Below are positions 15,840-43,112 of a DNA stretch of 64,000 nucleotides, in pieces (the first letter of the stretch is position 1; each line of letters begins with the position of its first letter). The notes under the pieces were generated by a model. The model ran no database searches and was not told the origin of the DNA. It saw only the letters and a program-made list of their open reading frames with translations. This DNA comes from Acorus gramineus. Its lineage: Eukaryota > Streptophyta > Magnoliopsida > Acorales > Acoraceae. The translations under genes were made by a program, and so were the position numbers. The DNA lies in the NCBI GenBank assembly GCA_030737835.1, contig JAUJYN010000012.1, positions 6,819,003-6,883,002 on the forward strand. The letters run 5' to 3'.

Positions 15840-16439
15840 TGAGATTAATCTAATAAAAAGAACACTTTGTTTGAGTAAATCTAGAATAAATAAGTTGTTA
15901 ATTAGATTAGATATAGATAGAATCTTTTATTTTTCACATCCATCCATTTATATATATACACAGAATGTAACTGATATACAGAATTGATACATATATATTA
16001 ATTTAACAATATAATAATAATATAATTTTAATTACATTTTTCTTATTTAAAAATATGACATGAAAAACATAAAAATGATATGAAAATATGTAATCTCTGT
16101 ATCAACAATTCAATCAATTTTGTTAATCAACCTTGTTTAGCTCTTATAACTTAAAAGATAATTATAATAACTTACCCATTATACATATAAAATTATCAAT
16201 CACTTCTATTATAGATAAAAAATAATAATAATAAATAAACTGAAGCAAATTTTCATACCTTTTACTTGTAGCTGAAAATTTAACCGTGATCTATCCCTAC
16301 CACATACATACCCTCCTTAGAAAAATACACTACTTTCTCTCACACCATGTATCATAGCTAAAATATGCATTAAATTACCAACATAGGTCCATAAAAACAC
16401 CCATAATTCAAACATAAATGTAATATACAAATCTGAAAT
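15835..16439. other. AT-rich intergenic sequence
   Basis: Nothing coding is visible. The base composition changes abruptly at 16440, where the GC-rich block begins. Confidence 0.35.
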
Positions 16440-21640: not shown

Positions 21641-21905
21641 ATTCGAATTCTCTCATTGAAGGATTCCACCCCTTCAAGTTTAAATAATAGCGAAAGCCAT
21701 GAAAGCCATGTGTTTATTTTTTTCTTCTTAGAATCTTTTTTTATTATTATTGTTAGCGGTTAATATTGTATTAGAAATCTATTTTTATTGTTAGGAGTTA
21801 ATAATGTATTATGTAAATTTATGAAGTAAGTCTCATGTATTTAAAATTAAATTTTTACCTTTCATTAATTTTTTATTTTTTATAATCAACTATCGATTAT
21901 GTATT
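21641..21905. other. AT-rich spacer
   Basis: No feature seen. A diverged local repeat of 'attgttag(c/g)(g/a)gttaat' occurs twice near 21750-21800. Confidence 0.3.
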
Positions 21906-22453
21906 TAAATTAAGGGAAAAATCCATATTACCCCCTATAAACTGATTGAAATCCATATAACCCCTTGACTTTTCTTAAAATCCATATAACCCCTTGAAAT
22001 TATCTAGTAAATCCAAAGAACCCCCTGAATAAAATTTACGTTTACAGATGATGAATATTTTGTGAATATTATGTTTAGTTAACCATGGTAGAAAACACTA
22101 TATATAAAAAAACCTTACAATACGTAAAAAATGCAGAAATCTTCTATAAATGGCAATTTTACCTCTCGAGATAAAGTTTTATAATATATTTGAAGAGGGT
22201 AAAATCGTCCTTTTTATAAGATTTTTCACATTTTTAACACATTGTAGTGGTTTTTTAGTATATTACGTTTTCAGTCATGGTTAATCAAATAAAATATTCA
22301 CAAAATATTCATTATCTATTAACAAAACTTTCATTCAGGGGCTGGATTTACTAGGTGTTTTAAAGGGGTTATATAGATTTTAAGAAAAGTCAGGGGGTTA
22401 TATGGATTTCAGTCAGATTTCAGAGGGTTGTATGGATTTTTTTTTTAAATTAA
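21906..22453. mobile_element. Full-length copy of the 521-bp MITE family
   Basis: GGGAAAAATCCATATTACCC at 21914 and GGTTGTATGGATTTTTTTTT at the right end bound about 532 bp of near-palindromic sequence matching the element at 9709. TAAATTAA stands on both sides (21906-21913 and 22446-22453), an 8-bp target duplication. No coding capacity. Confidence 0.8.
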
Positions 22454-22466
22454 ATATTTTTGTTAA

Positions 22467-22605
22467 GGGAAAAATCCATACAACCTCATAAAATCTGACT
22501 GAAATTCATATAACCCCTTAACTTTTCATAAAATTCATATAATCTTCTGAAAACACCTAGTAAATCCAAATAACCTATTGAATAAATTTTTTGTTAATAG
22601 ATGAT
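22467..22605. mobile_element. Truncated MITE copy cut at the GC-rich island
   Basis: GGGAAAAATCCATACAACC to GTTAATAGATGATGA reproduces the left quarter of the MITE family. The homology then stops abruptly at the GC-rich island and does not resume on its far side, so the junction is a rearrangement rather than a clean insertion. Confidence 0.65.
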
Positions 22606-23791
22606 GACAGTGGCCGCGGCTGTAGTGCGCAACTACGGGCACTGGCTGAGCACGTGCGCGGACAATGTTTGGGCACGACGTGGGCTCGCGCAGGCTTAGC
22701 AGACACGTTCCCGGGTGATCAGGGAGCGGATTGCACGGGATCTTGGGACGCGTTATGGAGGTGTGTCGATGTGCTGGCAAAGCGCGTCCGGGAGCAAGCG
22801 CTCGGAGATCGCGCGCTGTCGCGTGAGCTGGCACTCAGGAGCTGGCACGTATGCGGTTTCAGGATTCGCAAACATGTTTACGCGTCAGGCACTGGGAGAG
22901 CAAGCTGGCACGCACGTGCTTCCGGGGACAGCATGTCAGGATTTGCGGACGCGTTTGTGCATTTGGCACACGGGCACTCGGGCTCGGAGAGGTGGTGCGA
23001 GCACGGCGCGGCAGTGGTAGCGACGCAGCCAAGGCAAGACACGACGCGGTTAGCGCGTGCTGCACGGACAAGGCAGAGCGCGGCGCCGGCTAAACCCAGG
23101 CAAGACCATGTGCGGCACTGAATAGGCAAGGCGGCACACGATACGGACTGGGCAAGGTACGGCGCTCAGGAAGGGAAGCGCGCGTCGCGGGCTGAGCTGT
23201 GCAGGGATGGGTAGGGTGGCGTGCGGCGTGATTGGGCAGGGCACAGCTCTCGGGCAGGAAGGCACGTGGCTCGGGCTGGGCTGCGCACTGCTGGGCAGGG
23301 CACTCAGACTGGACGGCACGCAGCATGGACAGGGCGGCGCTCGGAGTGGGTACGGTAATGCGCAGCGGGCACCGAGCATGCATGGAATGCGTGTCAAGGT
23401 GCACGGGCGGGGCACGAGGCCGTGGCCATACGAGGAAGGTGTGAGGCGAGGAGGTGCATGGGGTGGCGGCTGTTGGCGCGGGAAGTGCATAGTGAGGCAG
23501 CAGTGGGCGAGGAAGGAGCACAGGGAGGCGGCGGTGGGCGCGGAAGGTGCACAGGGAGGTAGAGGTGGCTGCACGGAGGACGCAGAGGTGTGCGTGCCAC
23601 GAGGTGAAGGATTCCGACAGGAGAAAAAAAGAAAAAAAAAATTAAGGGTGACTCTGATACTGTGTTACAATTAGAGAGAGAGATTGAGAATTTTTGTATT
23701 CATTTTAGAGTCTAAGCCTTTTATATATAAGTACACAACAATTATATGTGTAATAGACAACACATATAATGACATAACATATAATCTAACA
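22606..23791 (-). mobile_element. LTR-retroelement fossil: 129-bp LTR plus GC-rich interior
   Basis: On the minus strand, TGTTAGATTATATG to CTCTCTAATTGTAACA (23791 down to 23663) is a 129-bp LTR-like unit with TG...CA ends. It is followed a few bases inside by a sequence like TATCAGAGTC, close to the initiator-tRNA(Met) primer-binding site (TGGTATCAGAGC). The adjoining interior, about 1 kb, is extremely GC-rich with loosely repeated GGGCAGGGC and GCACGGG words and no recognisable gag-pol. The short LTR and non-coding interior recall miniature (TRIM-like) elements. The second LTR is absent. A broken, inactive relic; the long frames in the island on both strands reflect base composition. Confidence 0.55.
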
Positions 23792-24514
23792 GAATCTTGC
23801 TCACAAATATACACCAATGTTTCGTATTTTGGCTCGAAAGCCATAGGACCCTTGAAAATTGGAAAATCATAGAAGTTTCTCACCCCCTTTTTTGGGTTCT
23901 AAAAGTGGATGAAATTCATCAAAACATAATAAAAAAGAGAGTTAAAATGTACCCATATGTAAATAAGGAAGCAAGAATCATGAACAAAAAAAAATCTATG
24001 AAACAAATCTTGTTGGAAGATTTGGGGATTCATCTTTTTTCCTTGGGTGTATAAAAAGTTAAACTTTCAAAAATTAATTTATGTGAATGTATCAGCTTTT
24101 TTCTCCTTGTGAATGTTTTTTTTAAAAAGTAATTTTAAGTCGATAATACAATAAATATTTATGAACTCTTTAGTTTGTATTTCAAATAATATCCTGAAAT
24201 AATGAAAGATGTGATAAATCAAGCACACTAAGACGAGAATATCCAGATCTTAAAAGATATTAAACACAATTCGGCAATAAGAGTTTTTCAGCCAATTGGT
24301 ATAGACATACCCCATCGTTTGATTTTTGCCTTACTCACATATTCATGAAATAAGAATAACAAATAAAAATAATTAAAAAAATTGTGTAAAATGCAATCAG
24401 ATTGTGCACATCATGCATAATTCCATATCATATTTCTGTTTACTTCTTTGTCATCTCCATCTTTACTAGCATCATATTCGTCTCAGAATCATCATTAGGT
24501 GAACCACCAACAAC
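23792..24514. other. Intergenic sequence
   Basis: AT-rich; no supported gene. A stretch near 24440-24514 may be decayed SSRP1 intron or exon leading into copy B, but homology is only convincing from about 24515. Confidence 0.3.
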
Positions 24515-25385
24515 TTTGCAAGTGAAAATTATGTTGTCTTGCATTTTTATGCTAATGACACTGTCGGAGCCAATGAGTTTGTCTCCTTTCCTTAATAGTG
24601 CTATTTTTGGTGTTAATTAATTGTGTTATAACTGCTTCACTTCTTTTTGGTTTCAGATACATTGATAGGTTTAATTTTTCACATTTCCAATTCTAATACA
24701 CACTTCATTGGTAATAAAACTTTATCTGCTATCAAGTTGAGTCCCTAGTTTTATTTACATTGCAGAGGTTATATGTTGAGCTATTAATTAGTTAAATTGT
24801 TTTACTTTCAGGTTTTCATCATGACAACATTACTAATAAGACAGGTGTTGACTCAAGTGGTCACAAACTCCTTGTTACTTTTGAAAATGTTTCATTCTTA
24901 ATCGAGATAGTGGACCCATTGTTAAAATTCTTGTTTCATCATTGTTATTTTTAGAACTGTATGATATTTTTTTCTGTCCATTAACATTTATTTTTTTTTA
25001 GAGAAGCTAACACTATCTTTTGAGTGCAGAGGATACTACAATTTTGAGTTTCCTCTTCAATTCATTTACCTTGAAAAAAGCTATGGAAATTAAGATCTAC
25101 TATAATAATGTGATTCAGATTTTCGTTCTGCTCAAGGTTTGGATATCATTAAATCTACTTGACTTGGATTTCCTTTTATTCTGTTTGCTATTAATCTAGC
25201 TTTTCCTGAATTTTACAAGTCGAAATCATCACGCATCTTTGTTGTTTTATGTTTGTTTCACTATTATTGTATGGTTAACTTAATATGAATTTAATTGTTG
25301 ACATGTGCAGATTGATCAACCCTATACTTTTGTTATTGTATCACATGTGAATTCCACTTAAATAGGAGAAACCTTTCATCAACAT
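24515..25385 (+). pseudogene. SSRP1: SSRP1 pseudogene body (copy B), left arm of palindrome
   Basis: Degenerate exon blocks in SSRP1 order: about 24520-24600 (a match to the QGKNDVTLEFH region), 24655-24770 (DTLIGLIFHISNSN-like, followed by GNKTLSAIKL), 24870-24905 (LLVTFENVSFLI), 25028-25137 (YYNFEFPLQFIYLEK, then KIYYNNVIQIFVLLK) and 25311-25385 (IDQPYTFVIVSHVNST). Stops interrupt several blocks, for example within the 25028 exon and after VNST. AG acceptors and GT donors are partly recognisable. Copy B is cut off after the PHTFVV exon by the palindrome centre. It is a mirror image of copy C at roughly 75-80 percent identity by eye. Confidence 0.75.
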
Positions 25386-26270
25386 ATGGTGGGTAAAAGT
25401 GCAAAACAATCACTAGACAATGCATCACAATTTGTTGGAAAAAATTTCTCCCATTTGAATAGAATTCACAAATGATACAACAACAAAAATATGAGACTGA
25501 TTAGTCTGCATACCACAACAATAAAAGTTATATTAAGTTATCCATACAAAAATAGTGAAAAAAAAAGATGCGTGATGATTTCTAGGAAAAAAAAACTAGA
25601 TTACTACCACGTAACAAAAAAAAAAGAAATTCAAGTCAAGTAGATTTATGGTATTTAAACCTTGAGCAATCCGAATCACGTTAGTATAGTAAACCTTAAA
25701 AGTCCATAGCTTTTTCTCGAAGATGTATAAATCAAAAATGAAGCTTAACATTGTAATGTTTTCTAACACTTAAAAGATAGTGTTAGCTTCTCAAAAAAAT
25801 AGATAAATATTTATAGATTGAAAAAGACATCATACAATTCTAAAAATAATAATGATGGGAAAGTAATTTTAACAATGGGTCCACAAATGAAAACATTTTC
25901 AATACTAACAAAGAGTTTGTCACCACTTGAGTCAACATTTATCTTATTGACAATGATGTCACAATGAAAAACCTAAAAAATAAAATAATTTAACTAATAA
26001 ATAGCTCAACATTGTTATAACATCTCAATGTAAATAAAACTATACACTCACCTCGGCAGCAGATTGAGTTTTATTACCAACGAAAGGTGGATTAGAATTG
26101 GGAATGTGAAAAGTTAAACCTACCAATGTATCTGTCTGAAACCAAAGAAAAGCAGTTAGAATACAATTAATTAATCCCAAAAATAGCACCATTAAGGAAA
26201 GGAGACAATCTCATTGACTCCAGCAATGTCATTAGCATGAAAATGAAAGGTAACATCATTTTTCCCTTGC
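24515..26270. repeat. Old inverted duplication of SSRP1 gene bodies
   Basis: Left arm 24515-25385 and right arm about 25436-26270 are reverse complements, with a 50-bp loop. Matching landmarks include GTGTTGACTCAAGTGG (left) against CCACTTGAGTCAACAT (right), and TGTTGAGCTATTAATTAG against CTAATAAATAGCTCAACA. Both exon and intron sequence is mirrored, so genomic DNA was duplicated, not an mRNA. Confidence 0.8.
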
Positions 26271-27415
26271 ACTTCTGCTTTAGATATATCCCATAAAGGT
26301 ATTTCAAAAGACAGTTTTGATTCAATGAAAAATGTCAATATGTTCCCTGCAAACACTCACAACAGCAACAAAATAAAAACAATGAAACACAACAACAGTA
26401 TAAGAATCAAAACTGACCATCCAATTATACATCGCCCCAATTATGGCCATTGACACTGTGTTCTTTTTGTTCCAATTCAATACCTCCTAAATGCGCCAAA
26501 TTCTCCCGTGAAACTCAACATACAAAAAACAAACAAAATTTTAATGACTCTAAAAATCAAATAAAATTTGGAAATTAAATAAAGATTTAATGATTTAAAA
26601 TCTTATTCGGATTAAAATTTTGAACTTTAACGTCTAGTTTGGGGGGGGAGGGGGGGAGGGCGGGTAAATTTTGGGATAAAGGTATAATTGTGATGATAAA
26701 CATAATCACAAATTACTCCAAATTTTTTCAAATATAAAAAAAAATACTCCAATTAGATATCTCAAATGATGTATCGTACTGAACATATAAATGTAAAATC
26801 CATATATCCATCCTAATGATAGATCATACATATTACGAAAATATCTAATTATCTCCATGCTTTATTTGTATTTATTCTATATGATTAGCGAATGCATATG
26901 TACCATACCCTAATATTTCCCATACATGAGCATTTTCACCATATTTATCATACATTAGTACATGAGCATTGTCACTATGGTGATAAATGGAGTTAGAACA
27001 ACTAATTTCATTTATTATAAAAATAAATTGGGATAACGTATAGACAGTTGTTTTGCTTTTGAAGTGAAAACTAGAATATTTTATTCCACCTAAAAACTAG
27101 AATAATATTATCTCCACTTTATGCCCTGATTCCAACAAATATTTTTTTATCCCTTAAAGATTAGGTGTCTAAGGTGATCCCAAATCATATTAATAAAGGC
27201 TTGGATTATAATTTAATGATTAACAAGAGTATTTACAACGAAAAGGTCAATGGATCAAACCTCTTGGTTGAAAATCAAAATTAGATAATGTGCTTTGACA
27301 CCAAGTTGTAAACTCCTGGTAATCTTCAACCAAAAAATACTTAAGATGTCAAGTTCGTCAACTTCAACAACATTCCCACCTCCCTGTTCCTCCAATCAAC
27401 ACATCCTTATTGCAA
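25400..27415 (-). pseudogene. SSRP1: SSRP1 pseudogene body (copy C)
   Basis: Minus-strand blocks from high to low coordinates: about 27415-27240 (QGGGNVVEVDELDIL, then TRSLQLGVKAHY), 26495-26420 (IELEQKEHSVNGHNWGDV), 26345-26190 (GNILTFFIESKLSFEIPL, then QGKNDVTFHFHANDIAG), 26140-26050 (DTLVGLTFHIPNSN, then PPFVGNKTQSAAE with a GTGAGT donor), 25960-25900 (remnant of VTFE-VS), 25790-25680 (remnant of the YNVELHL exon) and 25500-25400 (TNQSHIFVVVSFVNSIQMG). These cover the N-terminal half of SSRP1, including the dimerisation domain missing from copy A. Stops are present, for example after NWGDV. Together with the minus-strand first exon at 33417-33476 this may be one broken gene with a long first intron. 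Confidence 0.78.
26521..27230. mobile_element. Probable decayed Tourist-like MITE within SSRP1 copy C intron
   Basis: CGTCTAGTTTGGGG at 26630 followed by GGGATAAAGG, and TTTTTATCCCTTAAAGATTAGG near 27145, resemble the ends of the MITE at 17213. The TIRs are diverged and a guanine run (26641-26664) has expanded just inside the left end. Limits are uncertain. The element would lie in the intron between the first two body exons of copy C. Confidence 0.4.
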
Positions 27416-28808
27416 TGTAAGTTCTCTAGTATTCTGAAATTCAACATGCAAAAAGCAAACAAAATTATAGTGAGACTCTAAAAATCAAATAAATTTTGAA
27501 ATTCAAATAAAGATTTAATGATTTGAAACATATTCAGATTAATGAATGTGAAGCTCTTTAATTTCATTAGAAACTCTTCATCCTTTTAAATCACCTTTTG
27601 AAATTATCATGTCTTCATTTATTTCTAAAATAAAGAATCATACAGAACTTTCACATGAGACAGTGATAATTTCAAAAGGATGTTATCATATTCATTCTTT
27701 TGGATATGCCTAAACTATTTGATCACACCCAAGTTCACCAGAATCAATACTTCAAAAAGAGTGGTGCCTCCACAAAAAATCCATATTTTAAAATTTTAAA
27801 AATATCTAAAATATTTCAGACAGGAATATGATAATATACAATTCAAATATTATATTCGTATCTGAAAATTATTTTATATTATTATTTATTATATTAAAAT
27901 ATTTATATTTTTAGGATTAGTATGAGTTTTTATCTTTATTTATTATACTTTAAACCATGTAATATACTTATAATTTTTATAAATTTATATTTTATGTTAG
28001 GTAATTATTAGATTTTTATATATTTCATATATTAGATATATCATTTTTATTTTTCAGATATTTTAGATAATTATATGAATCTGAATTCTTAGATAAGATG
28101 CGAATACTTAATATAAATATTTTTGAATAAGTACTATCTGATACGCATCCGCTCAATTGCGAGACCACTAGTTCTCTACCTCTCCGACGTCCGATGACGG
28201 TACAAGGCACTGGGGGAGGTGGAGAACGGACGGTTGTGAGGTGAGGAAAAGGAGGGTGGGGTGAGAAGTCCAGATATGGATCGTGGATTTCGATGTGGGA
28301 CAAATATGAAAATGAGGAGGAGAAGAGGAGTCGGTGGGGGTGGCTTTGCTTCGGTGGAGGCTGTTTAAATAATAAGTTTTCTTGTAAGGATAGGATAGGA
28401 ACCAGATATTCTGACAACCCAACCTTTCCCAACCCTATCCGTCCAAAACTTCCTGTGATTACATGTTCTGCTTTGATTGGTTTAATATGTGTTGAAAGAT
28501 ATCTTTATCTTTAAAGGGATTTACCATGTATATCCTTTTAAAATTTAATATTTAGTTTTATATATTCTATTAAAAATAAGCAATTTATGTGAATTTCATT
28601 GTAAAGTTTAAGAATGATACATATTACCAATCATGTTAAGATCTATTATATTTTGGATTATATTGATATTAAAATCATTTAAATTGAAAGAGAAAAAAAA
28701 ATCAAAATACCCATTATTTTCTCTCTTTTAAATATTTTGTTTCAAAAAAAGAATATTTAATTGTAAAATTGATAAATTATTATTTTTTAAATCCATCTAA
28801 AATTAACA

Positions 28809-28841
<33 letters not shown>

Positions 28842-28990
28842 CTTTAAAAAAAACTTCTTATTGTACTTTAATTGACTAAAAATAATCACATATTAATTTT
28901 ATAAATATTATATTAAGGTTATTTATGTTAAAATATGTTAAATGATATCAATATCTTACCTTTAAAAAAAATTAATGAGATATATATCTC
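27416..28990. other. Intergenic or ancestral intron sequence
   Basis: AT-rich, ending in a TA microsatellite (about 28814-28840). A GC-richer patch at 28140-28440 holds a 135-aa minus-strand frame of proline- and serine-rich, low-complexity character with no recognised family. I do not call it a gene. Confidence 0.35.
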
Positions 28991-28996
28991 GTATAA

Positions 28997-30268
28997 CCAG
29001 GGACGGAGCCAGGAATTAGAATAAGGGGGGGCCACATATAATAGAATTAAACTAAAAGAAAAAAAAATTCTAATATAAAAATATGATATGATAATTTAAG
29101 ACAAAATTATGTCAAAAGTCAAGCGATTCATAAAATCAATGCATAAATACATATTTAATCAATGTTTTTAATTTAATACCCACAAAAAAGAAAGAGAGAA
29201 AAGTTCTATTCAGATTATAGACAGCTAAGTAATGTACCATCACAAAAAAAAAAAAAAAAGAGTATTTCTTGGAATGCACCATCACCACCTAAAATAAAAC
29301 AAACACATATCATCACCACAAAATTTCTTCATTAACCATTAATCAATTCATTGGCTAACAGAATTCCTAAAGAAATTTACTAACAATTTTTTCTGGATCT
29401 AAAAACATCATCTCCTTCCAAAGGGTTACATAATTTGTTCTAACTTCTACATAGATCTAAAAACAATTGAATCTCATTTGTTATAAATTTTTCAATGTCA
29501 GATTCTCTTCCTCTCTTCAACTCTCTGGTCCCAAACATCAAAACAATTAAATAAATATAAAAAAATTTCAAATAAAATTTATACATTTTTTAAAGAAAAT
29601 ATTTTAAAAAATTCAATATAACAAGTAACACAATAAAGAGATTCAATTCCAAATTAACAAATCATGCGATAATAAACAAAAATTAAACATAACAAAGAAT
29701 AAATAAATAAATAATCAATTATATAACAAATAAACTATGTAAGTATGTATAATATATAAATAAATAAATAAAAAGCCTGAGAAAGAGAGACTGACGCGTT
29801 GCAGAGGACGCAATTTGAAAAGCTTAATGTTGCATATGGTGCTGCATATGGTGCTGGTGAGAAAAGTCAATAGGGTTTTTGTTTCTTTTTTTAGTTTTTT
29901 TTAGGGCATTCATTGAATGGCCCACGTAATGTTTTTTTTGTGGAGTGTTGATATACTTAGTTTTTTTTTCAGTTGAAAACACAGTCTTATATATCACATT
30001 AAAAATCTAGTGAAGCATATATCTCGTTAGATGTTGTATATACTACATTAAATATTTTCTTACACTTATTAAAAATAGCTTCATTCAATTCGAAATGGTG
30101 CAATATGCATTTTTTATTAAAGCATATACTTTATTAGATGATGTTTATTATTTAAAAATAAATAAAAACATGTGAGGTCTGAGTTTTGATTGGTGAATGT
30201 GACTTTAGTCTAACATTTTCTTTTTTTGGGTTTGCTTAGGGGGCCCGGGCCCCACCCTGTCTCCCTCA
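28997..30268. mobile_element. Probable non-autonomous DNA transposon, about 1.27 kb
   Basis: The left end CCAGGGACGGAGCCAGGAAT with GGGGGGGCCACA is a very common plant transposon end. The right end has GGGGGCCCGGGCCCCACCC followed by TGTCTCCCTC, a diverged inverted copy. The interior is AT-rich without frames and carries part of the dispersed repeat seen at 8690 (29945-30225). No clear target duplication; a TG/TA microsatellite follows the right end. Confidence 0.5.
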
Positions 30269-30269
30269 A

Positions 30270-30300
<31 letters not shown>

Positions 30301-30474
30301 TTTTTATTGAATTTCTAATGATGTATAAAAATAACTAAGTATAAGTGAATTTTTTTTTTTAATCTGAATTAAATGAGGCCGGTCAAATCGGGCTACTAGG
30401 GTGGCAAGTTATAGGGTTTGGACCTAGATCGTTTGGGGCGGGCGGCCAAAGGAGGTGGGGGTGGTGGGGGGAGG

Positions 30475-31100
30475 AAGGTTTTATACTCAATCTTTTTATA
30501 GTCCAAAATACAGTCTCATATATATAGTTAGAAATCAAATGAAGAATATACATTCTTAGAAATCAAGTGAAAAATATACATCATTAGATGAGATATATAT
30601 CTCATTAAATCCTTTTTAACATTTACTAAAAATTGATTCACTTAACTCAAAATTGAGCGTTATACACTTTTCATCAAAGTAATACATTTTAAATGATGTT
30701 AGGCTATTTTTTTTTAAAAGAAAAACATACGTGTGGTTTACGTTATGAATGGTAAAAAGCAATGGGTCAAACATTTTCCTTTTTTTGTTATTTCAATTCA
30801 TGCCATAGGTACTGGGTTAGATTAATCTAGCTCTCTCTATTAAATTATAAAAATTAAACCATATGCATTAAATTCCTTTGATATATATTTTATTTTTCTC
30901 TAAATATGTGAATTTCATTTTAAGAAAATATAAAATATATTGACAGCTAGATAAATTGTTGTCCTAATATTTTTCAGTTTTTTTATTACTATAACATGCA
31001 GAATGTTAGGAAATTTATTCCAGTCCATTTTGCAATAGTAACATTGTAATTTTTTTTTTTTAAGAAATACGTCTATCTAATAAATATATATATTTTTCAT
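30475..31100. repeat. Left member of a 0.5-kb diverged direct repeat
   Basis: About 30590-31100 resembles 34160-34625 in the same orientation. Shared landmarks are GGGTTAGATTAA, GATAAATTGTTGTCC, AATGTTAGGAAATTTA and TAAGAAATACGTCTAT. The two copies flank the young SSRP1 palindrome. The first part (30475-30785) is also a member of the dispersed repeat family seen at 8690. Confidence 0.6.
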
Positions 31101-31916
31101 AAATAATGAAATATCTACTTGAATTAATGGAATGTATATATTTTTCTAGCTTTGTATATGTACGAAACTGGGGAAATTATATCTAGATTAGCATTGCATG
31201 GACCATTAAGCATGTCAGCTGCCTAATTGTAATTTAATCCATGTGGTTAGTTTGACAAGATGATAAAAAAAAAATAGAGGAAAAGTTATCTGAATTTTAA
31301 GGACTTATTGTGAGGGTCTAATGTTGCATGGACTTATTATTATTATGGAGATAGGGTCAGGAACCCTAATTAATTTTTCCTAAAATAAATGATAATTATA
31401 AAAATTATAAATACTTCATATTCATTAAATTAATCGAGAATATGCATACAAAAATTTATATAAGACATCATATAAGATTAATGAATGATACCACATAACA
31501 ATAACACGAAATTTTAGTTTGACAATGAATTAAGGTTTTGATGATAAATTGTGTTAGGTTTAGAGTATAAAAAGATTCTTTAATTTTGTCCTTACTCACG
31601 TTGTCAAAATTTGAAAAAAAAAATGGGGATAAATGTTATTCCAGTCTTTGGGTAAAAAAAAAATTCCTCATTTTTATTTTAATTTCAAAACAATTGTTTG
31701 TATTTTATCTCGATTTTTTTTTTTATATCAAACGAAATAAATTGTTATCTCCCACTTATCTTTACAATTACGTCTTATTCCACCACTTATCGTCTTAGAG
31801 AAGAGAGTTTATAAGAACATCTGGAGAACATCTAACACAACCTCGTCTGTTAATGTTAACGAGTGTGTATCATTGAAATTGACAAATTTGAATAACAACA
31901 AAATGAATAGGTTTTT
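31101..31916. other. AT-rich flank of the palindrome
   Basis: No gene seen. The inverted-repeat homology begins at about 31917 (GACGTGACGCGTCAGTT). Confidence 0.35.
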
Positions 31917-32356
31917 CGACGTGACGCGTCAGTTAAATAAATAAAAAAGAAAAAAATAAGTGGGTTGGGTGGGCCCCACGAGTCGAGTCAGTCACGGACC
32001 AAGATAAGAGACCCTTGAAATACAACTCTTCTTTCGTCTTCTTTTTCGTTTTCTTTAGTGAGACACAGAAAAACCATCTGTAACATTTTTTTTTTTTTTG
32101 AAGAAAACATGAAGCTCTCTTTACAGGCCCGTGAAACTCTGTATATGTACACATTTGTTCTTTCAGAAATCTTTTCTTTTCATTGAAATCAAGATTCGTG
32201 AATTCGATCAGAAATTCTTCCGCTCTCTAATGTATGCATCGTCTCTGATTCTCTCTCTAGTGTTTTCGATTGAATCCTCTGATTCTCTTTGTAGTGTATT
32301 TTGAAGCCTCTGATTCTCTCTCTCTTTTCAGTCTTCCACGAGTGATCAAGGTGAGA

Positions 32357-32410
32357 ATTGCTGACGAAATCGTAATCAACGACATCGTCCTCACTGGACG
32401 CGGCTGGAAG
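32357..32410 (+). pseudogene. SSRP1: SSRP1 first coding exon, plus-strand arm
   Basis: The exon reads ADEIVINDIVLTGRGWK after an ATT where the other arm has the ATG, and ends with an intact GTACTC donor. It matches the SSRP1 N-terminus (MADGH-FNNISLGGRGG). The start codon is lost and a Trp replaces Gly of the GRGG motif. No second exon follows on this strand before the palindrome centre, so it is an isolated exon. Confidence 0.75.
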
Positions 32411-33416
32411 GTACTCTCTCTAGAGTTTGTTTAATCTGTGCGAGATTATAAGTGTTTTTTGGTTTTTAGGGTTTGCTTGTCTTTTTAGGGTTTATATTGA
32501 AGATGAATCAGCGATTTCGTTTTGAAAAAAATTTGTGAATCGTGATTGTAACTTTGCATTGACTAATAAGCAACGTTGTTTTCAATTTGAGTGAAATTTG
32601 TGATTTTTTTTAGTGAAATGTTTTATTTTGTGTTATAATTTTATAATGTTGAAGATACTCTCTCTCTAGAGTTTGCTTAATCTGTGCGGGGATTGTACGT
32701 GTTTTTAGGGTTTGTATGTCTTTTTAGGGTTTATATTGAAGATGCATCAGCGATTTCTTTTTGAAAAAAATTTGTGAGTTGTGATTGCAACTTTGCATTG
32801 ACTAATAAGCATCGTTGTTTCCAATTTGAGTGAAATTTGTGATTTTTTTTAGTGAAATGTTTTATAAGTCCTCAACCCCTCTCTACCAAAAGACAAGGTG
32901 TCATTTTAGGGTTTATATTGAAATGTTTTATCTTCAACACAAAATAAAAGCATTTCACTAAAAAAAATCACAAATTTCACTGAAATTGGAAACAACGATG
33001 CTTATTAGTCAATGCAACGTTGCAATCACGACTCACAAATTTTTTTCAAAAGGAAATCGCTGATGCATCTTCAATATAAACCCTAAAAAGACATACAAAC
33101 CCTAAAACCTAAAAACACGTACAATCCCACACAGATTAAGCAAACTCTAGAGAGAGAGTACCTTCAACATTATAAAATTATAACACAAAATAAAACATTT
33201 CACTAAAAAAAATCACAAATTTCACTCAAATTGAAAACAACGTTGCTTATTAGTCAATGCAAAGTTACAATCACGACTCACAAATTTTTTTCAAAACGAA
33301 ATCGCTGATTCATGTTCAATATAAACCCTAAAAACCCTAAAAAGATAAGCAAACCCTAAAAACCAAAAAACACTTATAATCTCGCACAGATTAAACAAAC
33401 TCTAGAGAGAGAGTAT

Positions 33417-33476
33417 CTTCCCGCCGCGTCCAGTGAGGACGATGTGGTTGATTACGATTTCGTCAGCCATTCTCAT
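33417..33476 (-). pseudogene. SSRP1: SSRP1 first coding exon, minus-strand arm
   Basis: Minus-strand ATG codons at 33476 and 33470 start MRMADEIVINHIVLTGRGGK, a good match to the plant SSRP1 N-terminus with the GRGG motif intact. The donor position reads AAG|ATACTC, so the GT seen in the other arm is AT here. The next SSRP1 exon on this strand is at 27415, 6 kb away, which suggests the two once formed one gene. Confidence 0.75.
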
Positions 33477-33479
33477 CTT

Positions 33480-33935
33480 GATCACTCGTCGAATACTGAA
33501 AAGAGAGAGAGAATCAAAGGCTTCAAAATACACTAGAAAGAGAATTAGAGGATTCAATCGAAAACACTAGAGAGAGAATCAGAGACGATGCATACATTAG
33601 AGAGCGGCAGAATTTCTGATCGAATTCATGAATCTTGATTTCAATGAAAAGATTTTTAAAAGAACAAATGTGTACATATACAGAGTTTCACACCGCCTAT
33701 ACTATTAGGCGGAAGCTCAACGGGCCTGTAGAGAGAGCTTCATGTTTTCTTCAGAAAAAAAAAAAAAATGTTAAAGATGGTTTTTCTGTGTCTCACTAAA
33801 GAAAACGAAAAAAAAGACGAAAGAAGAGTTGTGTTTCAAGGGTCTCTCATCTTGGTCCGTGACTGACTCGACTCGTGGGGCCCACCCAACCCACTTATTT
33901 TTTTCTTTTTTATTTATTTAACTGACGCGTCACGT
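33480..33935 (-). promoter_or_regulatory. SSRP1-type 5' leader and promoter region
   Basis: Mirrors 31917-32335. It contains leader sequence with pyrimidine-rich CTCTCTCT runs. Relative to the left arm it has an extra stretch of about 30 bases holding the hairpin CCGCCTA-ATAGTA-TAGGCGG (plus strand about 33694-33713). No clear TATA box was identified. Confidence 0.45.
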
Positions 33936-34035
33936 CATGGGGCCCACCCAACCTGCTTATTTTTTTCCTTTTTTTTATTTAACTGTGCGTCAAGTCATGG
34001 GGCCCACCCAATGCGATTTTCTTTTTCTTTTTTAA
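33876..34035. repeat. Three tandem units around GGGGCCCACCCAA
   Basis: GGGGCCCACCCAA followed by a T-rich stretch and a (T)GCGTCA word recurs at about 33878, 33940 and 33999, a spacing of about 60 bp. The left arm of the palindrome has a single unit, so the tandem growth is specific to the right flank. Confidence 0.6.
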
Positions 34036-34159
34036 TTATTGTTTTGGGTGCCCAGCCCTTGCATTTGGGGCAGCCAGTCGGTACTTGTTTTTTTTTTTTT
34101 TCAACATTAAATTTAATTTTATAATATTTTTAAAAATTTAAAAAAATATATACATAAAC

Positions 34160-34625
34160 TATATATATATATACTTGATTAAATTTTTTATTTTAAAAAA
34201 AATAGATTAATTGAACTCATAACTTATTGTTAAACATTTTTTATTAAAAAATATATATAGTTAAATAATATTTATTATTTTAAAAAAAATTAAAAACATA
34301 TATAATCTGGGTTAGATTAAGTTAACTCTATATATTATAAAAAAAAATAAACGGATGTATTAAATTCATTTAAAACATATATTAAATTCGTTTTATGTAT
34401 ATGTTATTTTTCTATAGTTACGTGCATTTCAGTAAACATGTATATTTAAAAAAAAATTCAAAGTATATCGACGGCTTGATAAATTGTTGTCCAAATCTTA
34501 TCAGTTTTTTAGCATTATAAGTTTATAACGCACAAAATGTTAGGAAATTTAATCCAATCGATTTTGAAATAATTTGTAACTTTTTTTTTTTTTAAGAAAT
34601 ACGTCTATTTAATAAATATATTTAA
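34160..34625. repeat. Right member of the 0.5-kb diverged direct repeat
   Basis: Same orientation and order of landmarks as 30590-31100: GGGTTAGATTAA, GATAAATTGTTGTCC, AATGTTAGGAAATTTA, TAAGAAATACGTCTAT. It lies 3.57 kb from the left member, with the palindrome between. Confidence 0.6.
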
Positions 34626-34784
34626 TATAAATTACGTTAGGTTTTTTTATATAATCTTATTTAAAGGTTTTGTGTTTCATTTAAAATGACATTTGAAAGT
34701 AACAGGGAAGATTAAGATTAAATAAAATAATAACGAATACAATGTAAATGTAAAGTTGATAAAAAAAAGAAGAATTTTTAATTT

Positions 34785-35120
34785 TAAATCTCTCTAAACA
34801 TATGTATTTAGAGACCGATCTTTGTTACATTTTGTTTTTCAACTCTTCAAATTCAACAACTTATTTGATTTGTAATCTATTTGATTTTTAGAGTCCATTT
34901 GAAAATACATATTAAAAAGTAGCTTTTGAAATAAAATTATTTTTTAAGATGATTTTAGACCTTCATTTTTATTGGGATATTTTTTTTTAATTCAGAAATT
35001 AATATTTAAAAGCAGTTAATGTTTGACAGAGAAAATTGTTTTTCAATTCAAAAAATCAATTCCAACCAAACAGCGTCGTTTTTTAACTTTTCAAAACACG
35101 GATTTGGAGAAAAAAAATTA
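34785..35120. repeat. MITE half-copy in inverted orientation to 35228-35454
   Basis: 34889-35120 is the reverse complement of 35228-35454 with moderate divergence. Shared words include AAAAGTAGCTTTTG, TTTTTAAGATGATTT and TTTAATGTTTGRYAGAGAAA. The outer end reads GRGTCYRTTTGRAAA, typical of a Tourist-type TIR. 34785-34860 carries a trace of the foldback family. Confidence 0.6.
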
Positions 35121-35566
35121 AAGCCCCGTTTAGTTGCGCGTTTAGACGCACTTTTGCTTTTTGAAAAGCTGAAAAACTAAAATCGTACAGTCAAACAGGG
35201 TAGCTTTTTACAGAATCGAAAGCTGGATTCCTTTTAATTTTTCCCTCAAAATCTGTGTTTTAAAAAGCTCAAAACAGCGTTTTTTTATCGGAATCGATTT
35301 TTTTAATTGAAAAGCAGCTTTCTCTACCAAACATTAAACTCCTTTCAAATATTGATTAAAAAAAACATCATAAAAAAGTCAAGGTCTCAAATCATCTTAA
35401 AAAACAGCTTTATTCCAAAAGCTACTTTTCAATCTATGTTTCCAAACAGACCCTAAAAGGAATTCAACTTCTGATTCTGAATAAAGCTGCACCGTTTGGC
35501 TGCTCGATTTTAGCTTTTCAACTTTTCAAAAAACAAAAGTTGCATACAAACCAAACGAGGCCTTAA
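35119..35566. mobile_element. Tourist-like MITE, 442 bp, TSD TAA
   Basis: AGCCCCGTTTAGTTGCGC at 35122 and the reverse complement AGGCCTCGTTTGGTTTGT at 35563 are imperfect TIRs. TAA flanks both sides (35119-35121 and 35564-35566), the canonical PIF/Harbinger duplication. The inner arms pair around AAAAGCTGAAAA and TTTTCAACTTTTC. A second MITE-related segment (35228-35454) is embedded. It sits about 290 bp downstream of the THG1 stop codon. Confidence 0.75.
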
Positions 35567-35854
35567 TCTATTCACCAAACATCCGTAACCGTGAGTTTGT
35601 AAAATGTGATTTTATTTTTAAATCTATATAAACTATGTCATAGAATTCCAACCCAACTAACATAACCCATACTAATACAACTGAAATTCTAATACCAAAA
35701 AAAAAAAAAATACTAAGTACAACTGAAATTCAATATCTAGCATCCTCAAAAATTTTCTCTAATTTTCATCAGCATCAAAACGCGTAGCAGACCAACGCAG
35801 CACGCTTCATCCAATTTATGCTTCTTGCACTTGTTTAGTCCCTGATGCATTAAT

Positions 35855-38800
35855 CTAATTCTCTTCAATGATATATGGGTGTTCCCTCCAGAAATCTGTT
35901 TTGATTATGTCAAAGTGACCAACTGTTACCTTCCTCCGAGTTCTCTTAACAGGACATCCATTCTTGTCTAATTTCCCAATCTCTTCAACCTGAAATTCAG
36001 AGTGGAAAAAGGAGTGACTTTTATTTTTGCAATTTTATGGTTGTTCATTATATAAAAGTTTTCCAATTATGAATGACTTCAAGTTTTCATACTTGATACC
36101 CCATCAAACCAAACCTCCCTCAATATAATGGGATCTATGTATTTAGTTCCTACTATATAAATGAAATACATATAAGGAAAGAAGAATCACCATTTCTCTA
36201 TACACACAAGATCCTTTTCGGAAGATAGCAGGTAGAGTGTTATAATTGATCCCAAACTTCTCGAAAAGCAGGTCATTCTTCTCTTGTTTCTGTGTGCCCT
36301 GTGGAGCAGAGAGTCAGACAAAAGGTTGCTTATTAATTTTGCTTAAGAGAACATGATTTTTTCCTCTAATATACAGTTTCATATTCATATTCGCTTCATA
36401 TATGAACAGAAATCCCAATAATGCAAAGAGAAATCTTAACTAATGGAAGAAAAATTGCATAAACCATAACTGAAAGTTTATAATGTATGAACCTCAGATA
36501 TGCAGTGTTCATTCAATTTATGAAATCATTCCAATTTTGTTAAAACTAAGCATGGATTTATCATGTCAGAGGGGCAGTAGTCAAATAATTTCCAATGCCC
36601 ATTTGGAATCAATTGTCAAACTGACTCCGCTTCTACAAAATCAGTTTTTATTTAATCAATTAAATGGGTGTTTTTAAATTTTAGAAATTGATTGAGAGTC
36701 AACAAAAACAAACAGTTTTCATGGAAAAATGGTTATCGACAAAAAAAAAAAAGGTTGTTATGTAGGATTTCTTTGTGAGTAGTAAAAAACTATTGCCATA
36801 AAAAAACAAAAAAAAGGAAAGACAAGAGTATAGAACTATATTTCAGATGAAAGTTTGCGACTGATGACACATGTAGCGATCAAATCTTTATATTTCATCT
36901 TTACCATGTAGGCTATGGCATTCTGAGAAGAGGTACGAGGTAGGAATTAAAGTTCACGGAGGTTTTGTAACTAGTATAAAGACTCTGGGGCACAATGCTT
37001 GGATATTTAAGGTCATCCCATCTACTTCAGCTCTTTCATCACAACTGGCAGATGAACAGAAGGTATCAAAAGAAAAGTAGGTTAAACAACTAAAAGATCG
37101 AGGTGATAAATATATGGAACAAAAGAAACCAAACATTTTAATTGCCAATGTCAATCGGTAGAAACCTTAATGAAACCACTAGACCATAGTCTTTTAAGAC
37201 ATGGATAATTTTTTGGGGGGAAAAACAACAAGGGACAAATTTTGCTGATGAATATGTGGATACGCTAAATGTTTAGCACCATTAATACTAAATGAACCAT
37301 ACGAGGAGCTTATGGGCCATCCTATATGTGACATTTCTTGCATAATGATGATGCTTATGTTGAAACCTTTAATCATAATGCATGCATAAAACTATAAATA
37401 TATCCATTGTTTAAAATGAATAGTTTTTGCATCACCTTCAGAACATGTTGTGCTTCGTGTTCAGTTTTCCCTGACTTTACCAGCATCCAAAAACAAGTGT
37501 TGTATTGGTTATTTATGTGACCTAAAAAATAAAGAAGCATAAAAATTGAATAAACCAGCACTTACTTTCCAACAGGGTTATACTTTATACGAAAAAAAAT
37601 ATACATGTTCATCAACCTTATAAAATGTTTGATAATTCATTCAATTAAAAATTACAGGTTATCAATATCTAATAAATTTTGTTGAGCTGCAAAGAAAAGT
37701 AATACTTACAGTCTACCTGCCTCCAGGCCAAATAATCTAGAATAATCTTAACCTTTGGATAGCACACAACCCGACCATCAAAAGACGGAGGATACATCAA
37801 TTCTTTCTGAGGAAAGAAATCCTTCCACTTCATCACATACACAGAGGTGAAGAACGATACAGTGATGGAGAGTATTTTACTGCAATGCCACGCAAGGGAA
37901 AAAATCAGCATTGAACCAACATAGGAATTCCAGTTTTAAATGATTTACGTTTCAATGTAATTTGATCACGGCCTTTAGCAAAACCAAAATATATCTGCAA
38001 GGCATACAAGATGTCATTTAAAGAGAAGGATCATATGGACATAAAAAAAAACCTTGCTCGTCTTTGGAACATTTCAGTAGCCTCCTTCAATACAAAACTG
38101 TAACATCAAACATGAAAAATAACGTGAGCATAGAAGAAATAAATGGAATAAATGTATATTTTGTAATTGAGGCCGAAAGGTCTCTTATATAGGTACAAGA
38201 TGTACAAACCCTAAAACAGAAAAAGACCAAAATACCCATGACAAAAATTCGAAATTCATAAGGAATATGAATAATGTATGACAGGAATAATGTTTTCTAC
38301 TAGAAAATAGATATTCAAACCTGTGTCCGGTATTTTAATAGGTAAAAACTTAAGTTGGATGATTGATAATAAAAAGTCAAATGTAGTTAGTTCAGTTGCA
38401 ATCTTTATTATAATTTTGGGTTTATGTTCAGTAGAACAAAGAAAGACAAACCTTATTTGTGGTATATTTATGCGACGAAACAAAATAAATACAAGATTCA
38501 TTTGGGCCTTATGCTTGAAACTAGCTGGGGATAGGACATCTCTCCAACATGGTGGACTAATGTTGTGGCAAAGCCTCCCCCCCCCCAACCAGGCCAACCT
38601 AATCCAACTTTTTTAGAAGAAGAAGAAAAAAGTTTGGGAGCCCTCACTACCTGAAGTGAGTGAACAAACGAGGGACAGATGCATGTGGGCCTATGTGATT
38701 AAAAACCAAACATAAGAGTTTCATTTTTGTTTTAATTATCTACGTATAAATATAAATATTAAGTAAATACACTCTCTTCAACCTTACTTTGTGGGGGCCA

Positions 38801-39630
38801 TGACTATAAGCTAGAGATTGATAATTTTTTAAAAAATTATTTTTAGAGGGCATCATATAACTGAATTGTCTTTCTGATCGGGCTTCATGAGCTTGATAAA
38901 GATTTTTCACATGATTGCTTTTTTATGATAAGATTAATTGATATTTTTTTTAATGTGTGAGCATGTTCTTGAAAAAAATGATGAATGATTGATAGGAACA
39001 AAATGTTTTGCTTAAAGGGTGAAACAAATGATAATCATTTCTTCTTTTTTATTCTTTGTAAACCTAGAAGCATGAAATGTACTGTAATGAGTTTCTAATA
39101 TAAATTTGGAGACACTGAATAAATGAAATATTTTCTTGGGTTCTTCATGATCATTTCTGAGTTGATCCCTGTATTTTTAAATATTAACTTCTATGCAAAC
39201 AAGACTTACATTACATCTGGGTCTCAACAAAAGAGACATTAAAGAAAGCATATGACTCTCAAACCTGTACTCATCGCTGACACCATAAGCGAAGACTATG
39301 TCAGGGAACTGCTCCAACATGGCCAAAGCACACGCATTCATCAAGTTCAGCGCGTGCTCATCATTGGGCTTCTCGAACTCATGAATCGCTGAGAACCTAC
39401 ACAAGATCCATGCATTCGCACGCACGCACACACGCACGCGTGCATTATAGAACCACAACATGAAAACATGCGAGCAGCACAAAACGAAATGCGCGCACAA
39501 GCACGCACAAGGGAGAGAGTCCTAACCTGTGAAAAGAGCATCCGTCAATCCTAACAACAAGCCAATTGGATGGCGGCAACCGGTCGTCCAGCTCGAAATT
39601 CTTCACGTACTCATACTTGCTGTTCGCCAT
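35855..39630 (-). CDS. THG1: tRNA(His) guanylyltransferase, single-domain, seven coding exons
   Basis: Thg1 adds the obligatory G-1 to the 5' end of tRNA(His), the identity element for histidyl-tRNA synthetase. Coding exons on the minus strand: 39630-39527, 39396-39265, 38097-38053, 37879-37710, 37521-37436, 36298-36191 and 35989-35855. All introns are GT-AG, phases agree, and the product is 259 aa, close to animal and fungal Thg1. Visible motifs: RIDGCSF with Asp29; FEKPND at 42-47; GVSDEYSF with Asp76 and Glu77 (the three carboxylates that bind the two metals); PPSFDGRVVCYP; DYLAWRQVDCHINNQYNT with the HINN signature; then RKGS and the C-terminal segment VKRTRRKV, HFDII, FWREHP. The ATG at 39630 begins MANSKYEYVKNFE, the family N-terminus. 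Donor GTAAGT at 37709 is preferred over the nearer GTAGAC because it restores D-C-H-I-N-N. Arabidopsis THG1, as I recall, carries two tandem Thg1 domains; only one is present here. Confidence 0.9.
38130..38650. other. Possible repeat insertion in THG1 intron 2
   Basis: This part of the 1.17-kb intron between 39264 and 38098 holds a short TATATAGG-containing motif (about 38195) and a C-run flanked by GCCTCC and CCAGGCC near 38575-38596. It looks like transposon-derived filler, but ends and family could not be set. Confidence 0.3.
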
Positions 39631-40440
39631 CTCATACCATTATCATCCTACGTGGGGTGATTTAATCGGTCGGTGCTACTAAAAATCACTGGTTCAATTT
39701 ATTTATTTTTGTTAGGACTTTCGTTGAACAATTCGTACGCAGAGACAATTCATGTAATAGTAGCATATACAATGTAATCTTAAAAATATATATATATATA
39801 TATGAGGTAGGGTTGAAACTTGAAATTCACAAAACAAAAAAGAACATTTTGTCCAAAAATCTCACATTCCTTCAAAGCAGCAAGAGATCCGACACAAGTG
39901 CAAATCAAAATCAAATCTTTCCAAACATAAAACCCAAAACCAATTATTTTCACTAAAAAAACATATCCATGAATCAAATTTGAAAGCAAAAATAAATTGA
40001 GAGAGAGAGAGAGAGAGAGATTACCCTGCTGAATGTATCTCGCAAGGAGGTGGGCAGCCGGGGGCAGACAGAGAACAAAAAGTCGGGATCGCAGAGAACT
40101 GAGGTTTGGGTTTTAGGGTTTCTCAGTTTGAGTTGGGAGGGGAGGGGAGGAGAGGGTGAGAATGGGCGGCATGTGAGGTTTTCGAGAGGTCGTCGGTGTT
40201 GCCGTAGGTGATCTTGTCGATCATGTACCGGTGGGTTGTCTCGAGGAAGACAATGGATTGTTTGATGGGTGAGAACATGAAGGACTGGAGGTCGTCGTGG
40301 CTAAGATGGTGGTGAGGCTGGGGAGGAAGAGCTGTAGAGCGTTGTGGGTTTGATGAGGGAGGGGGTCATGGCGGCTGCCATGGCTGATGGTTCTTTTTGG
40401 GGGTTTAAAGGGATTGATTGATGGGGTGTGCAATGAAAAC
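39631..40440 (-). promoter_or_regulatory. THG1 leader and promoter region, GC-rich upstream patch
   Basis: Upstream of the THG1 ATG (read leftwards) lie a (CT)n leader tract (plus strand GAGA repeat 39999-40020) and a telo-box type AAACCCTAA (plus strand 40115-40125), both frequent in promoters of plant translation-related genes. A GC-rich patch at 40130-40400 reads on the minus strand like former coding sequence (for example [16 protein letters not shown]), but frames are short and no family was recognised. Confidence 0.45.
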
Positions 40441-40482
40441 TTTATGTCCATTTAATTGGGTTTTCTTTACCAAAAAATATAG

Positions 40483-40960
40483 AGATTTTTATTTTTAAGT
40501 CCCTGTAAACATACATATTTAGGGATCAGTCCCTCACTTCTTGATATTTATTTTTTAATCCCCATATTCAACCGCCTATTTGATTTTTAGTCCCTCCGTC
40601 AAACGTCCGTCCATACACCGTTAATTTGTTAAATATGATTTATTTTTAAGTCCCTGTAAACTATGTTATTTAGTGATTGGTCCCTCCATTCTTTAGTGAT
40701 TAGTCCCTCCATTCTTTATATTTTACAGGGACCAATCACTAAATAACATAGTTTACAGGAACTTAAAAATAAATAACATAGTTTATAGGGATTAAAAAAT
40801 AAAATTAAATTTTACAAATTAACGGTGTATGGACGGACGTTTGACGGAGGGACTAAAAACCAAATAGGCGGTTGAATATGGGGACTAAAAAAAAATATCA
40901 AGAAGTGAGAGACCTATCTCTAAATATGCATGTTTACAGGGACTTAAAACTAAAAATCCC
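40483..40960. mobile_element. Complete foldback element, about 478 bp
   Basis: Arms of about 230 bp run from GATTTTTATTTTTAAGTCCC to its inverse GGGACTTAAAACTAAAAATC. They include CCGCCTATTTGATTTTTAGT against ACTAAAAACCAAATAGGCGG, and CGTCCGTCCATACACCGTTA against its inverse. The centre carries a second, inner inverted pair around CAGGGACCAATCACTAAATA. AT-rich sequence on both sides (AAAAATATA, AAATATATA) could be an imperfect 9-bp duplication. Partial copies lie at 80-260, 7045-7195 and 34785-34860. Mutator-type foldback is possible. Confidence 0.7.
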
Positions 40961-43112
40961 AAATATATATATATATATTTTGGGTATTCAAAGAATATAT
41001 CTTACTTGGGTGTAGAAAGAATTAGGTGTACAAGGCAAAAATAAGAGTGTAAAATTGCAAATAGAGGCACCCTTTCATGTTTTTATTATTTTTAGTTTTA
41101 TTTATTCATTTATTTGTATTTGAAGGGTTGCTCTATTTATTTTTATTTTTTTTCAGTACACCCAACATAAATAGATTTTTGGATGTGCAAGAGGAGGAAG
41201 AGGAGAGATTCAGATAAGAGGAAGCAGGGTAGAGGTCAGGGTGGGGAGAGGGTAGAGGAGGGTGGGGCAGGGGCGGACCCGACCCACCCCGACCCCTCCT
41301 CCTCTTCCTCCTTATTTATTTGGGAGAGTCTAAAGAACATCATCCATTTGGATTTGATGTGCGTAAATATTGGATGTGTAAAGAAAAAAGATTGGTGCAA
41401 ATAGAGGCACCCGTATTTAAATTAGGAGATTACCAGATTTAGTATCTCGGGTGATAAGGTCACATGCTCACAAAAGGAGTGGGTAGTGTTCGCATTTTTT
41501 AGTAGTTTTTTTTTCTTTTTCTAAATATTTTGAAAACTAGACCTATTTAGTGAACCATAAAAAGAAAGAACGTGACGATGACTGATTCAATAGTTAGATT
41601 AATCATAATTAAACATAATAAATATATTTAATTATTATCATTAAATAAATAAAATTCATAAAAAAATATAAAATATCAATTTTTAATTTTAATATTTTTT
41701 AAAATTATCACTTAACATCATATCATATCATGATTATATTATATAAATCCTAAATTTTTTTGAGATTTAAATTTTTAATAAATAATTAATCGTAATTTCT
41801 ATGAATAAAAAAATAAGTTGATGTAATCAACTCGTAGTCGTTTTTAAAAACCATTGGTTCAACCAGTGGGTTGGTTGATTTTTAACTATTTTTATACTAT
41901 CAGGTTTTAAGGGTCCAGAATTCGAAGCAAGTAAAAATTTAGCCAGTTTAAATAGGCGGGGTCAGATCAGGTGTTGGCTCCGTTTGGGAGCACGCCCGCG
42001 GTGCCAAGACACAGGTAGCGGAGTCGAGGAACGAGACAAAAACAAGTAAAAAACAAGATACAACAAGGTTGTTGTGAGTCATCAACGCAGCGACAGAAAA
42101 TAGGGGCAGATTTATGATACTTTTTCGGGGTGGGTTAAACTATTCTTTTCATGAATATCTTTATTTTTGATAAAAATATATTAAATATTTTTTTTCATTT
42201 TGGTAGTTAAATTAAATGGGGTATTTTGAAATGAAATAAATTCATGAAAAGATTAAGCAAAACAAAACAAGTTCACTAATCCTAACTAATCCGAGAAAAG
42301 AAAATAACAAACAAACACAAATATAAAGAATAAACAATTAAAGATGAGATAAAATATTAAAATTCCACTTTCTTTTAAAAAATAAATCTAGTTAAAAAAA
42401 ATATAAAACAATAAATTTCTTGTAAGATAAAAAATCTCATCCTTTGCAAAACAATCTATTCACATCCACTCATTCCATCCACCTCATCCATTGATTAATC
42501 TGATCCAATTACCTTATTACCCTAAGCAAGAAAAAACAATAAAAATACACAGAATGAATTAAAAGAATCAAAGAATATAAAAATTAAATCAAAATCTTTG
42601 TTACATAATGTGGTTAGTGTTTGGTAAAGGGGGGGTGTTGATTTATTCACCATTCACGACTGCAAAAGATTAAAAAAAAAAAAAGAGGTTTAATTAGGAT
42701 ATATTTAGGTTTACATAGCAAGAATATTTTGGGGGCTTTTCTAATAAAATCTGTGCTGAACTGGTATTTGGGTTATTTTCTAACAAAATCTTAGCTGGGT
42801 TGTACTGAGGATTTTCTTACAAAACTGAGCTAGGCTAATATTTTGGGGTTTTTTAACAAAGTTTGGGCCGGGTTAGCCCGACCCAGCCAACTGTTGGGCC
42901 TGCCCGTGGACGGCAATCCATCGCCAAAGACTGATGGGCTAGATTCGTCTTTAAAGAGCGTCAGTCACCATTGTTCAATTTTTTTTGTTTGTATATGATA
43001 TGTTTAGTCGAGAGAATAAATATAGCAATAGAAGACATGAAAACATGAAAATATTATACTTATAATTATTCATGCAATCATTTTTACAGTACGAATATAT
43101 TTTAAAATTTAT
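40961..43112. other. Intergenic sequence, no gene seen
   Basis: AT-rich with short GC-rich stretches (41185-41300, a GA-rich then CCGACCC-rich tract; 41985-42070; 42880-42960). The frames here are low-complexity and show no family signature. Confidence 0.4.

Follow-up and report, generated by a model that had tools for sequence, protein, structure and literature searches.

A kilobase-scale inverted repeat built from 5' fragments of an SSRP1-like paralogue in Acorus gramineus, and its probable origin

In Arabidopsis Ws, the duplicated PAI gene is present at PAI1-PAI4 as two inverted copies at one locus, with unlinked relatives elsewhere. The two genes lie tail-to-tail, one of them is the main source of the enzyme, and methylation and small RNAs are reported for the inverted repeat (PMC3203196, in excerpt). 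A second described case is GmIRCHS at the I locus of soybean, an inverted repeat of a CHS pseudogene which is clustered with its paralogue and associated with natural RNA silencing; the region tends to undergo large structural changes (excerpt of PMC13051633); the silencing is reported together with a seed-coat phenotype (excerpts of PMC13051633 and PMC3804491). On a broader scale, the inverted-duplication model of plant miRNA origin, which involves two neighbouring gene segments that converge or diverge, was assigned to 11/142 miRNA genes in Arabidopsis and 93/290 in rice, according to the excerpted text of PMC3237417. The premise of the first-pass annotation of the locus described here, that inverted duplication is a recognised source of plant small RNAs, agrees with the literature in the parts available (PMC3237417, PMC3203196).

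A palindrome of this kind is found in a stretch of 64,000 nucleotides of Acorus gramineus DNA, hereafter the window (C32:6819003-6883002), which was compared with a 398.6-Mb genome assembled into 137 contigs. As at PAI1-PAI4, inverted and highly alike copies of a host gene stand at one locus and additional copies of the gene are present elsewhere in the genome. As at GmIRCHS, the repeat is clustered with a paralogue in a structurally changeable region, and the adjacent gene segments recall those of the miRNA model. Unlike the PAI pair, which carries two genes, the palindrome is limited to a promoter, exon 1 and an incomplete intron; methylation, small RNAs or silencing are reported for the two described loci and would be hypothetical at the palindrome.

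Structure of the palindrome

The features of the locus are listed below in window coordinates.

29107-31917, + strand: flank Y, upstream of the left arm
31918-32865, + strand: left arm, with a promoter that contains one 60-bp repeat, the leader and the exon-1-like stretch, as well as intron unit 1 and an incomplete unit 2
32357-32410, + strand: left exon-1-like stretch of 18 codons, in which ATT replaces ATG; a GT donor follows
32866-32904, + strand: 39-bp filler, an exact copy of C5:30588587-30588625
32905-32943: small intron-unit pieces, scrambled and in both orientations, a putative junction scar (read by eye)
32944-33936, - strand: right arm, with the promoter in inverted orientation, the leader and exon 1, as well as intron unit 1 and an incomplete unit 2
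33417-33470, - strand: right exon-1 stretch, MADEIVINHIVLTGRGGK, with ATG present and the donor AAG/AT, not GT
33868-34040: three promoter repeats of ~60 bp, each with TGGGCC on the - strand
34055-40431: flank X, upstream of the right arm

Alignment of the arms, which are separated by a 78-bp spacer (32866-32943), gave 914 identities, 28 mismatches and 57 gap bases, corresponding to 97.0% identity over 942 aligned pairs, or 91.5% with gap bases counted; the gap bases fall into 8 gaps. Judging from this alignment, a match of such length and identity cannot be produced by chance. The existence and shape of the palindrome, described in the first-pass annotation as arms of about 950-1000 bp across a short spacer with a doubled intron in each, were thus confirmed, the intron unit of ~240 bp being repeated in tandem in both arms; the coordinates given there were one base off.

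An inverted-repeat scan of 223,540 non-N bases (matches of at least 150 bp, spacer below 3 kb) returned two cases with arms of at least 600 bp and at least 89% identity by BLAST, in regions picked for their similarity to the window or to SSRP1, so that the count does not represent a genome rate. One is the palindrome at 31918-33936 and the other lies at C32:7080001-7081479, where ~615-bp arms, 97% alike, are separated by a 249-bp spacer; this second repeat reaches the edge of the retrieved sequence and may extend further.

The coding state of the arms was examined at the start and donor sites. The left arm has GTG and ATT at the start sites, the right arm two ATGs, and the related copy in a second cluster (cluster B, see below) GTG and ATG. 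At the donor position, AAG/AT is found in the right arm and in cluster B, and GT in the left arm and in the SSRP1 gene on contig C8. The first exon does not appear to be intact in either arm, and the arms presumably no longer encode an SSRP1-type protein. One TGGGCC is kept in the left arm. The exon 1 peptide of the right arm stands against MTDGHLFGNILLGGRGGT in the C8 gene, and the DNA from the ATG into the intron matches the C8 gene at 45/66 ungapped positions, a value reached by 0/20,000 mononucleotide shuffles. As regards the SSRP1 leader, first exon and intron that had been assigned to each arm, this similarity to C8 exon 1 and the intron start upholds the family; the source itself is a diverged paralogue and not SSRP1.

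In the centre, the arms meet within the same intron unit. With up to 3 mismatches, the 30-base core of the filler occurs in the genome at the window and C5 sites only, and its reversed control at none. Filler from elsewhere in the genome, microhomology and rearrangement are described for break repair and end joining in plants (PMC8395108, in excerpt), and the centre is accordingly read as a likely end-joining scar.

A diverged SSRP1 paralogue and its second cluster

In a genome-wide family search, PF17292, PF03531 and PF08512 all matched C8:719-724 kb, and occurred together nowhere else. The best SSRP1 gene is located there (~718.3-724.3 kb), with a series of exon-like pieces in open reading frames; the PF03531 match runs through stops, as expected if an intron is spanned. 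Besides C8, PF08512 passed the threshold on C2 only, in an open frame of 1,075 aa which we take to be another histone chaperone, and at E <= 0.001 the same search gave no PF08512 match on C32. SSRP1 also has an HMG part. The N-terminal, SSrecog and Rtt106-like domains which mark an SSRP1 gene are absent from the arms, as these contain exon 1 only. To locate exon content, sixteen peptides from the C8 gene (e1-e16) served as tblastn queries; they were chosen by eye from its open reading frames with the known SSRP1 protein as a guide. Of these, e15 and e16 overlap in different frames, and the series is not a verified exon model.

A genome search with arm DNA, which ignores very common words, returned five matches, all on C32 and in two clusters, and the paralogue promoter was found by the same search on C32 alone. 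Cluster B (C32:7080001-7120000) lies ~250 kb from the palindrome, and there the arm-type promoter and exon 1 are followed, in one orientation, by SSRP1-like exon 2-5 pieces with 46-54% protein identity to C8. Because the promoter and exon of the arms precede SSRP1-like exons of this low identity, the SSRP1 label is right for the family only. On these comparisons, the arms derive from a diverged SSRP1 paralogue, not from SSRP1 itself.

Other SSRP1-like sequences are present in the window. A decayed copy at 931-3891 on the + strand matches pieces e2, e6, e7 and e10-e14, and has an in-frame stop inside the exon-2 piece; it contains pieces of the domain covered by PF08512, which counts against the explanation preferred below. 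At 24517-26271 lies an older inverted repeat (~77%), with exon pieces 4-6 on one side and pieces 7, 5 and 4 on the other, which is found on contig C12 too and has a CpG observed/expected ratio of 0.32, against 0.48 in the corresponding part of the C8 gene. On C12, a homologue (92-98%) of the window from 10.6 to 28.6 kb is broken up by other sequence; the part at 20714-28647 is ~93-98% identical and C12 is possibly the other haplotype. This homology is cut off at the counterpart of base 28647 by a gap of 10,000 N, ahead of the palindrome position, and C12:100001-140000 has a single 182-bp match to the window (at least 150 bp, at least 75%), in a comparison that omitted C12:1-40000 and a few hundred bases directly past the gap. 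The window further holds an open reading frame at 52034-52429, apparently the end of a hypersensitive-induced-response (SPFH/band-7) protein, and one at 13572-14027 which resembles a Copia-type integrase.

The upstream flanks differ between the arms, with Y on the left and X on the right. The junction of Y with the left arm, between 31917 and 31918, recurs base for base in cluster B between C32:7101792 and 7101793 (B 21792 and 21793). In cluster B, the homologue of X and a promoter fragment of 285 bp, named B1, are ~1.2 kb apart, so that the pairing of X with a promoter is found there in a more distant version and in direct orientation; the promoters of cluster B are codirectional (B 16099-16240 and 21793-21931, both on the + strand). 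Over 139 promoter bases, the left arm agrees with the cluster B copy B2, and the right arm with B1, at three differing sites. The right promoter, however, differs from B1 at 23/273 positions, far more than from the left arm. Since it is so much closer to the left arm than to B1, the X/B1 pairing is best regarded as an old relative of the pairing of X with the right arm, and not as a close copy.

Divergence is nearly equal in three comparisons: 28/942 (2.97%) between the arms, 23/846 (2.72%) between the left arm and B2, and 27/874 (3.09%) between the right arm and B2. At a rate of ~7e-9 substitutions per site and year, a divergence of 3% would be equivalent to about 2 million years. Between the window and cluster B, the Y block differs at 56/2,611 positions in the left copy and 59/1,380 in the right copy, the end of Y at 8/122 and 29/537, and the block Z (27002-28841) at 34/1,837. 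Far X differs at 27/2,665 and 19/2,145, another X copy at 68/1,461, and near X at 89/1,051. Flank-block divergence therefore spans from below 1% to 8.5%, which points to a contribution of gene conversion or of repeated duplication. As the block divergences are unequal, the cluster has undergone several exchanges of different age, and either arrangement, inverted or direct, may have come first.

Flank X itself is a mosaic, 8.5% from cluster B in its first kilobase and ~1% past 35454. The end of Y (31381-31917) is also, at 31917, the end point of an inverted rearrangement in cluster B at C32:7112526, and for this reason base 31917 is read as a breakpoint used more than once. Within Y, cluster B carries a 1.46-kb insert (C32:7100211-7101670) whose mirrored ends include a C6/G6 run (CCCCCCGTTTGG) and which resembles a transposon with terminal inverted repeats.

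Predicted hairpin and competing explanations

For a transcript from 32050 to 33810 (1,761 nt), folding predicts 816 base pairs and -1,317 kcal/mol. This is consistent with the earlier proposal that read-through transcription would produce a very long hairpin, and on this model a long hairpin RNA is possible. That the hairpin is aimed at a core chromatin factor, as was also proposed, did not hold: no 17-mer is shared between the arms and the 20 kb around SSRP1 (C8:714001-734000; 0/932 in the left arm, 0/977 in the right). Long exact identity to a target, as expected of a silencing locus, is found instead with the paralogue cluster, where 550/928 21-mers of the left arm and 408/973 of the right have an exact match in cluster B. 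At up to 2 mismatches from the C8 gene there are 2/973 21-mers in the right arm and 0/928 in the left; at up to 3 mismatches there are 18/973 and 12/928, respectively, against 1/928 and 7/928 for shuffled and reversed controls of the left arm, pointing to a slight residual similarity. Rfam gave 0 matches in 24000-41000 and hence no recognisable precursor family, although a novel miRNA would be absent from Rfam anyway. In this, and in the lack of long identity to its presumed target SSRP1, the palindrome is unlike the loci of the inverted-duplication model (PMC3237417, in excerpt). Judging by titles and the starts of abstracts, the literature retrieved on SSRP1 with inverted repeats in plants contained nothing on the subject.

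The CpG observed/expected ratio is 1.08-1.10 in the arms, 0.56-0.57 in X, Y and Z and 0.64 in the window, while the C8 gene has 1.28 at its 5' end and 0.46 overall. Private C>T or G>A changes amount to 4/12 in the left arm, 5/14 in the right and 6/12 in B2, over 841 ungapped columns from which those past 32783 are excluded owing to an insert in B2. The arms thus bear no mutational trace of methylation over long periods; the test is weak, given the few changes, the youth of the arms, their origin from a CpG-rich promoter and the low overall ratio of the intact C8 gene itself.

The reading most favourable to a function is that read-through RNA is diced to 21-24-nt siRNAs which silence or methylate the SSRP1-like gene ~250 kb away. 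The near-complete predicted hairpin, the exact 21-mers in the second cluster and the precedents of PAI and GmIRCHS, as far as their excerpts go, agree with it. Nevertheless, we consider it unlikely, in view of the CpG content of the arms relative to flanks and window, the missing excess of C>T and G>A changes, the empty Rfam search and the mere 410/928 left-arm 21-mers that are exact in the right arm. Less likely still is a fuller version, in which a young, promoter-built inverted repeat fires inward from each end and its small RNAs silence the paralogue promoter, true SSRP1 escapes through its diverged promoter and exon, and the repeat at 24517-26271, ~6 kb off, represents an earlier round. 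Regulation of genuine SSRP1, as first suggested, has a homologous exon 1 and a number of 3-mismatch 21-mers somewhat above the controls in its favour, but the absence of any common 17-mer makes it the least probable of the readings. It is also very improbable that a minus-strand gene uses the right arm as its functional promoter and first exon and splices from there over the left arm to the SSRP1-like exons at 27.4-26.0 kb. Strand and order agree and the right arm has an ATG; however, its donor reads AAG/AT, the exon-3 piece contains an in-frame stop, the exon-2 match starts only at residue 15, and these exons are just 71-74% like those beside the same promoter in cluster B.

The structure itself could have other sources. 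Long inverted arms around a short centre would suit a fold-back or Pack-MULE-type transposon which captured the 5' end of a gene in its terminal repeats. Yet no further palindromic copy is found among the five arm matches in the genome, no target-site duplication is visible by eye at 31917/33937, and the outer ends are explained by the Y/arm junction common to cluster B and by promoter repeats which continue outward on the right. Lacking multiple copies and a target-site duplication, this candidate was rejected and is given very little probability. An assembly artefact, through a fold-back read or a mis-join, is held to be just as slight a prospect. Long-read libraries are known to produce artefactual palindromes, but the arms differ at 28 sites and 8 gaps and have distinct flanks, and the filler has only one other location in the genome. 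Moreover, the exact recurrence of the left junction at a second site, together with the more distant form of the right pairing, argues strongly against a fold-back artefact.

Probable origin and significance

The explanation we regard as likely is a chance inverted repeat, formed by two truncated 5' fragments of an SSRP1-like paralogue within a repeatedly duplicated and rearranged cluster on one chromosome. The trigger may have been a fold-back event or a double-strand break that fell between two copies in opposite orientation; microhomology or theta-type end joining with template switching would have repaired it, with loss of the remainder of both genes. Alternatively, the palindrome could initially have been perfect and its centre revised later, a course with which the near-symmetrical end points of the arms would also agree. 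Should either promoter fire, a long hairpin RNA would result, for which the paralogue copies in the same cluster would be good targets; a small chance thus remains that the palindrome silences its own paralogues.

On the best reading of the sequence, the locus would be a natural gene-fragment inverted repeat, structurally similar to PAI1-PAI4 and GmIRCHS, and of a fairly ordinary kind, as arises when genes are duplicated locally. The junction is unusually readable, and the flanks and the filler have survived together with a related cluster in which the orientation is direct. The palindrome clearly lets one dissect the possible origin of a gene-derived inverted repeat, the structure from which plant siRNA and miRNA loci can develop, and it shows that a hairpin bearing the name of a gene need not target that gene.
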